NCBI GenBank assembly: GCA_035945995.1
Contig: DASYZR010000070.1
Span: 1 to 52,561, forward strand
Reading direction: 5' to 3'
DNA length: 52,561 bases
From: a bacterium
GTDB taxonomy: Bacteria > Sysuimicrobiota > Sysuimicrobiia > Sysuimicrobiales > Segetimicrobiaceae
Shown: piece after piece, positions 15,483-36,978 of the stretch
Layout of the letters: the number at the start of each line of letters is the position of its first letter
Numbering within the stretch: the stretch's first letter is position 1
Program-made: the position numbers and the translations under genes
Notes under the pieces: model-generated
Databases searched by the model: none
Seen by the model: only the letters and a program-made list of their open reading frames with translations
What the model was told of the DNA's origin: nothing

Positions 15483-15953
15483 ATGCAGGTGCAGGCGCGG
15501 TGGACGTCCGGCATGCGATTCGAAGGGACGAACGCGGACGGGCTGAGCGTGACGATGGACGCTCATCCCGAACACGGCGGCGCCGGAGGCGGGCCGGCGC
15601 CGATGGAGACCCTGCTCCTCGCGCTTGCCGGGTGCACCGGCGCGGACGTGGTCTCGATCCTCCGGAAGATGCGCGCTCCGTTGGATCGCTTCACGATCGA
15701 AGTACACGCCGACCGGGCGGCGGAGCATCCCCGGGTGCTCACCGCGATCCATCTGCGCTACGATGCCGCAGGACGCGGGCTGCAGCCGGACCAGGTGAAA
15801 AAAGCAGTCGCCCTGTCCCAGGAGAAATACTGCTCAGTGTCGGCCATGCTGCGCCGGGCCACCCCCATCACCTACGACGTCGTCGTGACCGACACGAGCG
15901 CCGGCTCGGAAGGCGCGCGGGCCCACGCCCCGGCCGCGGGGCAGGCCGGATAG
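15483..15953 (+). CDS. OsmC family protein (cysteine form)
   Basis: OsmC/Ohr-fold protein; relatives reduce organic peroxides through a pair of cysteines. The first cysteine is in LALAGCTGADVV (about residue 51) and the second in QEKYCSVSAML (about 120), the arrangement of the YhfA-like branch. It has 156 residues from the ATG at 15483, preceded by GGGGTGA; a GTG at 15477 would overlap the previous stop. It lies between the thioredoxin-fold gene and the CsoR-family gene. Compare the second OsmC gene at 36489-36950, which has TGA at the first cysteine. Confidence 0.9.
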   Translation: MQVQARWTSGMRFEGTNADGLSVTMDAHPEHGGAGGGPAPMETLLLALAGCTGADVVSILRKMRAPLDRFTIEVHADRAAEHPRVLTAIHLRYDAAGRGLQPDQVKKAVALSQEKYCSVSAMLRRATPITYDVVVTDTSAGSEGARAHAPAAGQAG

Positions 15954-33354: not shown

Positions 33355-33960
33355 CTAGGCCGAATCGACGCGTTTCGCGCCGATGCCCCGCATGAACCGG
33401 TCCTTCACGATCACGGGATCGCGCTCGGGGCGGGCCGCGCCGGGCTCCTGATTCACGCGGGCGCCGATGAAGCGCGGGCCGCGGCCCGTGAGCGCCTCGC
33501 CGACGAGCCGTTCGAACTCCACCGCGTCGTGCGCCCAGGCACTCTGCACGATCCCTGCGCCGCGCGCCACGGCGACGAGATCGGTCGCCTCGGCGGTGGC
33601 GGCCGGCTGCCCGCCGGTAATCTGGTACGTCCCGTTGTCCCAGACGATAATGGTGAGGTTGTGCGGCGCGAGCATGGCGACGGTGGCGAGCGCGCCGAGA
33701 TTCATCAACACCGAGCCGTCGCCTTCGATCGCGAACACCCGGCGCGAGGGCTGCGCGAGCGCGACGCCGAGTGCGATCGGCACCGCGAGGCTCATGCTGC
33801 CCAGCATGTAGAAGTTCTCGGGCCGGTGGCCGGCCGCGAACAGATCGAAGTTGGCGTTTCCTATGCCCGCCACGACGATCTCGCCGTGCGTCAGGCTGCC
33901 GACGAGCCGCCGCGTCAGGTCGAGCCGGCTCATCGCCTTCCTGACCACCTTGTCGCGCAT
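33355..33960 (-). CDS. ThDP-dependent decarboxylase, beta (cofactor-binding) subunit, ComE-like
   Basis: A 201-residue subunit like sulfopyruvate decarboxylase beta or the C-terminal part of phosphonopyruvate decarboxylase. The thiamine-diphosphate motif GDGSVLMNLGALAT to NGTYQITGG (about 80-118) is intact, with the SMSLAVPIALGVALA segment before it. It pairs with the alpha subunit at 34149-34661, from which it is separated by 188 bases of tandem repeats. Start ATG 33960. A beta subunit on its own is inactive in relatives, so the two products should form one enzyme that decarboxylates a 2-oxo acid. Confidence 0.85.
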   Translation of the reverse strand: MRDKVVRKAMSRLDLTRRLVGSLTHGEIVVAGIGNANFDLFAAGHRPENFYMLGSMSLAVPIALGVALAQPSRRVFAIEGDGSVLMNLGALATVAMLAPHNLTIIVWDNGTYQITGGQPAATAEATDLVAVARGAGIVQSAWAHDAVEFERLVGEALTGRGPRFIGARVNQEPGAARPERDPVIVKDRFMRGIGAKRVDSA

Positions 33961-34148: not shown

Positions 34149-34661
34149 CTAGCCCTCCATCTTGCCGCCGGTCAGCCGCGGCGACAGGATCAGCGCCGCG
34201 GGCTGCTGCGTCCGGTGGCACTGATGAACGCTCCGGGTGACGAGAAAATCCACCTCGTCTTCCCGTTCGAGCGTGACGTGCGGGATCCCGAGCGCATCCA
34301 GCGCCGGCCTGATCACCCGGGCGATCGGCACCTGGACCGCGTTGAACTCGCCGAGCACGCCGCGTTCCGAGATCACGAGCACGACCGGCAGTTGATACGG
34401 CACCAGCAGCGATGCGAGCGCGTTGGGGACGTTGCCGAACCCGCTGCTCTGCATGAGCACGGCCGACGGCGTTCCCCCGAGCGAGGCGCCGGCCGCGATG
34501 CCCACCGCCTCCTCCTCACGCGTCGCGGAGAACGCGGTCACCTGGGGGTGCGTCTGAAACCCGTCGATCAGCGGGATCAGGACCTTGTCCGGCACATACG
34601 TCACGAGCCGGATCCCCTGGTCCGTGAAGCACTTGATCATCGTGCCGGGCCACTCGCTCAT
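34149..34661 (-). CDS. ThDP-dependent decarboxylase, alpha (PYR-domain) subunit, ComD-like
   Basis: A 170-residue subunit related to sulfopyruvate decarboxylase alpha. The PYR domain has VPDKVLIPLIDGF, then SATREEEAVGIAAGASLGG, whose glutamate activates ThDP, and MQSSGFGNVPNALASL. Start ATG 34661 has AGGAGG at 7 bases. The gene follows the SAF-domain oxidoreductase by 9 bases and is transcribed before the repeat array and the beta subunit. Confidence 0.86.
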   Translation of the reverse strand: MSEWPGTMIKCFTDQGIRLVTYVPDKVLIPLIDGFQTHPQVTAFSATREEEAVGIAAGASLGGTPSAVLMQSSGFGNVPNALASLLVPYQLPVVLVISERGVLGEFNAVQVPIARVIRPALDALGIPHVTLEREDEVDFLVTRSVHQCHRTQQPAALILSPRLTGGKMEG

Positions 34662-36164: not shown

Positions 36165-36401
36165 TCAGTGCTGACACCCGCACATACCGCCGCCGCAGCA
36201 TCCGCCCGACGCCGGTCCTCCGCCGACATCCGGCGCGGCGGTCCCGGCCCCGGTCATGACCATGACCGGCGTGTACACGCGTTTGGCGGCCGCCGTCCCG
36301 CAATTGGGGCACGCCGGAAGCCCCCGACTCCCGTACTCGGCCACGGTCGCGATGATCTCGAACTCATGCCGGCAGGATCCACAGCGAAACACGTACGTCA
36401 T
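36165..36401 (-). CDS. FmdB-family zinc ribbon protein
   Basis: A 78-residue protein with the FmdB-type zinc ribbon: CGSC at 7-10 and CPNC at 31-34. The C-terminal tail is glycine- and cysteine-rich (GGCCGGGMCGCQH), which is common in the family and may bind another metal. The family is named for a putative regulator beside formamidase genes; actual function is unknown. It is convergent with nothing and lies 63 bases downstream of the oxidoreductase promoter region. Confidence 0.88.
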   Translation of the reverse strand: MTYVFRCGSCRHEFEIIATVAEYGSRGLPACPNCGTAAAKRVYTPVMVMTGAGTAAPDVGGGPASGGCCGGGMCGCQH

Positions 36402-36488: not shown

Positions 36489-36950
36489 TCATTCCTCGGT
36501 GATCTCCCGGGCGTGCGAGATCTCCACGCACCCCTTGAGGGTCTGGGCCACCGGGCAGCCGCGCTCGAACACCGCGAGCGCCCGCTCGGCCTCGGCCCGC
36601 TTGCCCTTGGGAATCCGGAGATGGTAGGTCACGCGCATGGTGGTGAGGCGCATGACCCGGTCGGGCGCCTCGATCGTGCCCTCCGCTTCGGTCCAGAGCT
36701 TGTCCGGGTGACTCGGGATCCCGCGCGCCTCCAGCGCGCCCGCCAGGGTGCCCGTCAGTCAGCCCGCCGCCGCGCCGACGAGGTGGTCCAGCGTGCTCGG
36801 CAGTTCCTCCTCCGGCTCGATCTGATAAAACGCCTTGATACCGGTGTTCACGCCGTACCGGATCGGATCGGGAAAGTCCCCCAGGTAGGCCCGCCGGTTG
36901 GGACGCTTCTCCTGATAGACGCGGGCCCGCGCGAGGTGCACGACGCTCAT
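36489..36950 (-). CDS. OsmC family protein with in-frame TGA (candidate selenocysteine)
   Basis: Read through TGA at 36761-36759 (codon 64), this is a 153-residue OsmC-fold protein. The N-part is SVVHLARARVYQEKRPNRRAY to DHLVGAAAG. After the TGA comes LTGTLAGALEARGIP and a normal C-part with RGCPVAQTLKGCVEIS. Family members have cysteine at the TGA position (GCLTGTL) and a second cysteine in the CPV motif (here C132), the redox pair that reduces peroxides. TGA thus replaces exactly the reactive cysteine, as expected for selenocysteine. A hairpin at SECIS distance follows. ATG 36950 has AGGAGG at 7 bases. The alternative is a nonsense mutation or sequencing error, but no other damage is seen in the gene. 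Confidence 0.75.
36723..36761 (-). promoter_or_regulatory. Candidate bacterial SECIS hairpin after the OsmC TGA
   Basis: After UGA (36761-36759), nucleotides 20-25 (GCGCGC) pair perfectly with nucleotides 31-36, closing a 5-base loop UGGAG. The loop begins 26 bases after UGA and has G in its second position. Both facts fit the general bacterial SECIS model (loop 16-37 bases after UGA, G among the first two loop bases). GC-rich DNA forms hairpins easily, so this is supportive, not decisive. Confidence 0.5.
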
Positions 36951-36978
36951 CTCTTGCCTCCTGAGAACGCCGGGGCGT

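Follow-up and report, generated by a model that had tools for sequence, protein, structure and literature searches.

An OsmC-fold protein with an in-frame UGA at the peroxidatic position, best read as a member of a new and apparently selenocysteine-only subfamily

The DNA examined in this study (the window, 52,561 nucleotides) has an OsmC gene on the minus strand at 36489-36950, coding for 153 residues plus the stop. The ATG start lies at 36950 and is preceded, 6 bases upstream, by an AGGAGG ribosome-binding site (36957-36962), in agreement with the strong ribosome site noted in a first-pass annotation of the window. Codon 64 is an in-frame TGA (36759-36761) in the context AAAG-U-LTGTL, and 89 further codons separate it from the true stop codon (36489-36491), also a TGA. 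Codon 132 (TGC, 36555-36557) is the predicted resolving cysteine, in a GCPV motif. Both the open frame and the GCPV described in the first-pass annotation can be read directly in the sequence.

The TGA has been found at the position of codon 64 in all twelve relatives from named genomes. Three phylum-wide samples gave 89 substantial orthologue matches, spread over 87 genomes, and every match has one internal TGA and no more: the 43 genomes searched from the window's own phylum gave 21 matches, the 396 from the phylum to which L034 (a Blastocatellia record) belongs gave 31 with a score of at least 100 bits, and the 395 from that of L035 (a Deltaproteobacteria record) gave 37. The protein and profile queries of these whole-genome searches had cysteine at the site and hence no bias towards TGA. 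The three genome-search tables therefore provide the unbiased counts, while the TGA in 87 of 87 extracted loci is circular because extraction demanded it. Loci that were read confirm the TGA position within the motif G/A-U-[LM]-x-G-T, and UxxGT is present in all extracted orthologues. Weaker matches without an internal stop belong to other OsmC families and reach no more than 54 bits (L150-L155, for example), the weaker match in G123 is a contig-edge fragment starting after the TGA site, and the copy in G075 is degraded with the TGA still present. No cysteine orthologue was found in the genome samples of the three phyla, contrary to the suggestion that cysteine and TGA forms might both occur, and searches of plasmids and viral contigs for relatives returned none.

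An internal TGA could also come from a sequencing or assembly error, which the first-pass annotation wished to see considered, or from a nonsense mutation that a pseudogene has recently acquired. The assembly is a draft of 181 contigs, and one TPP enzyme of the window seems to have an interrupted or frameshifted gene, with its N- and C-terminal TPP-binding domains in two separate open reading frames (33355-33960 and 34149-34661, minus strand). However, the same TGA occurs in 87 genomes, in independent assemblies and across phyla; as dozens of such assemblies carry it, the TGA of the window gene is not a base error. The codons that follow are also under purifying selection. Differences between relatives after the TGA fall mostly at third positions in a codon-position test, so these codons are translated, and the first 13 codons show no first- or second-position change in seven comparisons. 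The 89 downstream codons evolve as protein. Homologues do not all end at the TGA, as they might have if it were a terminator, but run about 85-90 codons further with protein-type evolution. The probability of error or a pseudogene is thus vanishingly small. As in bacterial selenoprotein genes, the in-frame UGA occupies a conserved site of functional importance, and the coding sequence runs on beyond it.

The window protein matches the Pfam OsmC profile (PF02566) at 51.6 bits (E 1.4e-13), over the curated cut-off of 27.5. An AlphaFold model built from a 32-row alignment of the UxxGT subfamily has a mean pLDDT of 96.5, and the PDB entries that match it best belong to the OsmC and Ohr proteins (1qwi, E 2.7e-9; 2onf, TM 0.77); profile and fold together place the protein in the OsmC superfamily. 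In alignment with OsmC from Thermus thermophilus (1ukk), codon 64 corresponds to the first redox cysteine, as the first-pass annotation had it, and C132 to the second. U64 and C132 are invariant in the 32-row alignment and provide the two redox residues of the OsmC/Ohr thiol peroxidases.

A SECIS-type hairpin lies at bases 20-36 after the UGA (36723-36739). The six-base-pair stem and five-base loop reported earlier are confirmed as GCGCGC-UGGAG-GCGCGC, and the loop occupies bases 26-30, so that it begins at base 26 with G in second place as had been stated. Plain folding energy of the 45 bases after the UGA is weakly informative (mean z -0.72), and a hairpin-specific test against synonymous-codon shuffles was therefore used, requiring G as the first or second base of the loop and a loop start 16-32 bases after the UGA. 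Across 62 non-redundant orthologues, the best hairpin averages -10.8 kcal/mol compared with -4.4 kcal/mol in the shuffles (mean z -2.03), and 97% have a hairpin at or below -8 kcal/mol. Four later segments of the same genes, used as a control, have z of about 0 and only 3-6% at or below -8 kcal/mol. The hairpin of the window sequence by itself does not reach significance (p 0.15), because the GC-rich codons there favour hairpins; the strength of this evidence lies at the level of the family and not in the single sequence. Two forms of the hairpin have been found. Most acidobacterial sequences and those of the window's own phylum have GCGCGC-UGGAR-GCGCGC with loop bases 26-30, and the deltaproteobacterial group has a CUGGCCR/UGGCCRG-type stem around bases 20-25, commonly CGGUGC. 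Stem pairs 22-34, 23-33, 24-32 and 13-32 show compensatory exchanges, and one orthologue (L143) is without the hairpin. At the level of the family, the UGA is therefore closely followed by a hairpin that has G in its apical loop, as in bacterial SECIS elements.

The same genome has the components for selenocysteine insertion, and all four genes that the first-pass annotation proposed to look for are present. Contig C155 carries tRNA-Sec (selC; 70.8 bits, anticodon UCA), selB (351 bits), and selA (551 bits), and contig C5 carries selD (386 bits), which is itself a selenocysteine gene (ACAGUASK). Next to the tRNA-Sec gene lies a transposase of the IS256 type that seems to be divided between two open reading frames (L023 474-1779, minus strand, C155). 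Of the 87 orthologue genomes, 78 have a clear selB (18/21, 26/30, and 34/36 by sample); in the other nine, all drafts, it is split, partial, or missing. As selB over the cut-off is common in the sampled phyla anyway (31/43, 254/396, and 353/395 genomes), this co-occurrence indicates consistency more than a strong correlation.

UGA followed by C is a known leaky context, and every extracted orthologue has C or A after the TGA, so UGA might be read as another residue, either through leaky read-through or through general reassignment of the stop. However, TGA terminates the window gene and 42 of the 87 extracted orthologues, and its persistence as a normal stop argues against general reassignment. 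Read-through with another residue is also opposed by the hairpin under selection behind the internal TGA, by the selenocysteine machinery in the genome, and by the coincidence of the TGA with the position of a redox cysteine. This explanation is very improbable, and insertion of selenocysteine at codon 64 is, from the comparative sequence evidence, predicted with very high confidence.

The explanation that best accounts for the whole, with a probability of about 0.93, is an OsmC/Ohr-fold selenoprotein with Sec64, decoded by SelB and tRNA-Sec and with predicted peroxidase chemistry. SelB and tRNA-Sec would insert selenocysteine at the UGA of codon 64 under the direction of the hairpin 20-36 bases downstream. 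In Ohr/OsmC peroxidases, organic hydroperoxide oxidises an N-terminal peroxidatic cysteine, which then forms a disulfide with a C-terminal resolving cysteine; in the case of Ohr, lipoylated proteins act as the reductant (PMC4069020). By analogy, Sec64 at the peroxidatic position may reduce an organic hydroperoxide to give selenenic acid, Cys132 may resolve this as a selenenyl-sulfide, and a thiol reductant, such as a lipoylated protein or thioredoxin, could recycle the enzyme.

Not all proteins with the OsmC fold are peroxidases; the YhfA subfamily is an exception, reported to lack thiol peroxidase activity (PMC4069020). Since such members exist, the peroxidase role of the window protein is put at moderately probable. 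Sec64 could instead act in thiol or selenol transfer or in a thioesterase-like role. No operon partner suggests peroxide defence: in a search for conserved partners, the crotonase, S1, zinc-ribbon, and DRL neighbours were found to be kept in only part of the window's own family, so gene context gives neither a function nor support for a peroxidase role. However, Sec64 and Cys132 are both invariant, as are the corresponding residues in OsmC and Ohr peroxidases, and a selenoprotein with a role other than hydroperoxide reduction is the less likely reading, although a real contender. The gene that follows the OsmC gene encodes an FmdB-type small zinc-ribbon protein (36165-36401, minus strand; ending in CCGGGMCGCQH), and the two genes are found paired in several genomes, all from the window's own family.

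Selenocysteine has been reported in OsmC-like proteins before. An OsmC-like selenoprotein with the motif UxxT was described from the Sargasso Sea in 2005 (PMC1088965) and in the GOS survey (PMC2398784), so the metagenomic reports mentioned in the first-pass annotation do exist, but they apparently concern a different subfamily. An inventory from 2026 separates 119 families and subfamilies by selenocysteine position and motif and has only the UxxT form for PF02566 (PMC13188914). The UxxT proteins (COG1765/PF02566) share with the window protein the OsmC fold, selenocysteine in place of the peroxidatic cysteine, and a downstream bacterial SECIS element; the subfamily of the window differs in having UxxGT and forming its own clade. 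The closest NCBIfam model is the OsmC peroxiredoxin (TIGR03562), with members in Escherichia coli and T. thermophilus, at 33.5 bits compared with a cut-off of 85.8. The fold and the two redox positions are the same (1qwi, E 2.7e-9), but the peroxidatic site of TIGR03562 is cysteine and identity is about 20%. Ohr, a lipoyl-dependent peroxidase, is similar in fold and, by analogy, in a two-residue peroxidase cycle (PMC4069020), but has cysteine rather than selenocysteine and only 11-16% identity in the fold matches; by sequence, neither the window protein nor the subfamily matches an Ohr model. The window also has a second OsmC-like gene (15486-15884, plus strand), of the ordinary cysteine type (LALAGCTGAD).

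The NCBIfam model NF041052 (OsmC-related (seleno)protein) presumably represents the known UxxT selenoprotein. Four of its genes in the window's own phylum (L071-L073 and L078) read U[LI]LT and three others (L074, L076, and L077) read U-E-x-V, so the model spans more than one motif. Two NF041052 genes with an in-frame TGA (L078 in G039 and L071 in G040) occur in genomes with no selB over the cut-off, where selB may be divergent or lost in an assembly gap, or the genes may be decaying. The UxxGT proteins might be divergent members of this UxxT/NF041052 family with one shared origin of selenocysteine, since fold and catalytic position are the same and 18 of the 32 subfamily members have weak matches to NF041052 (best E 1e-6). 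However, no strong match is listed among the members of the 32-row alignment, and the window protein scores 16.3 bits where the cut-off is 95. It is below every NCBIfam cut-off, and no better model for the subfamily turned up. In a rebuilt tree, from which the mis-extracted row L064 was left out, all 64 rows of the UxxGT type cluster together (support 100/98). AU tests reject a single clade of all selenocysteine forms (p 0.0005) and also the union of the UxxGT and NF041052 selenocysteine forms (p 0.003), although long branches limit this result. The rejection of joint clades indicates that selenocysteine and cysteine have been exchanged more than once in OsmC. Four genomes (G001, G029, G031, and G033) carry both types. 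A shared origin with UxxT is accordingly doubtful, with a low probability. Horizontal transfer is suggested by the interspersal of phyla in the tree, where L061 stands with L091, L094 among the deltaproteobacterial rows, and L157 among the acidobacterial ones.

The window protein is therefore best read as a member of a new, apparently selenocysteine-only subfamily of OsmC selenoproteins with the motif G/A-U-xx-GT, where selenocysteine-only means that no cysteine orthologue was seen within the three sampled phyla. It is likely that UxxGT represents a second OsmC subfamily with apparently obligate selenocysteine, independent of UxxT, which has reached three or more phyla, in part through horizontal transfer, differs by about six bases between lineages in the position of its SECIS loop, and has gone unrecognised by inventories and NCBI models. 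The open-access papers searched on selenoproteins of the sampled phyla gave nothing on the subfamily. With relatives in 87 genomes of three phyla, it is a widespread selenoprotein group absent from the published catalogue. Annotation pipelines would probably truncate the gene or call it a pseudogene, as it falls outside all NCBIfam models. Cysteine counterparts are common for many redox selenoprotein families; a subfamily for which sampling of whole phyla turned up no cysteine form makes a good test of what selenocysteine adds over cysteine. The window's own phylum has two further OsmC-like types with an in-frame TGA at the peroxidatic position (L081 and L082 in G006 and G004, and L083 in G005), with the motifs VALCA-U-INVST and AALGT-U-TAVTL, and both are below the cut-off of NF041052.
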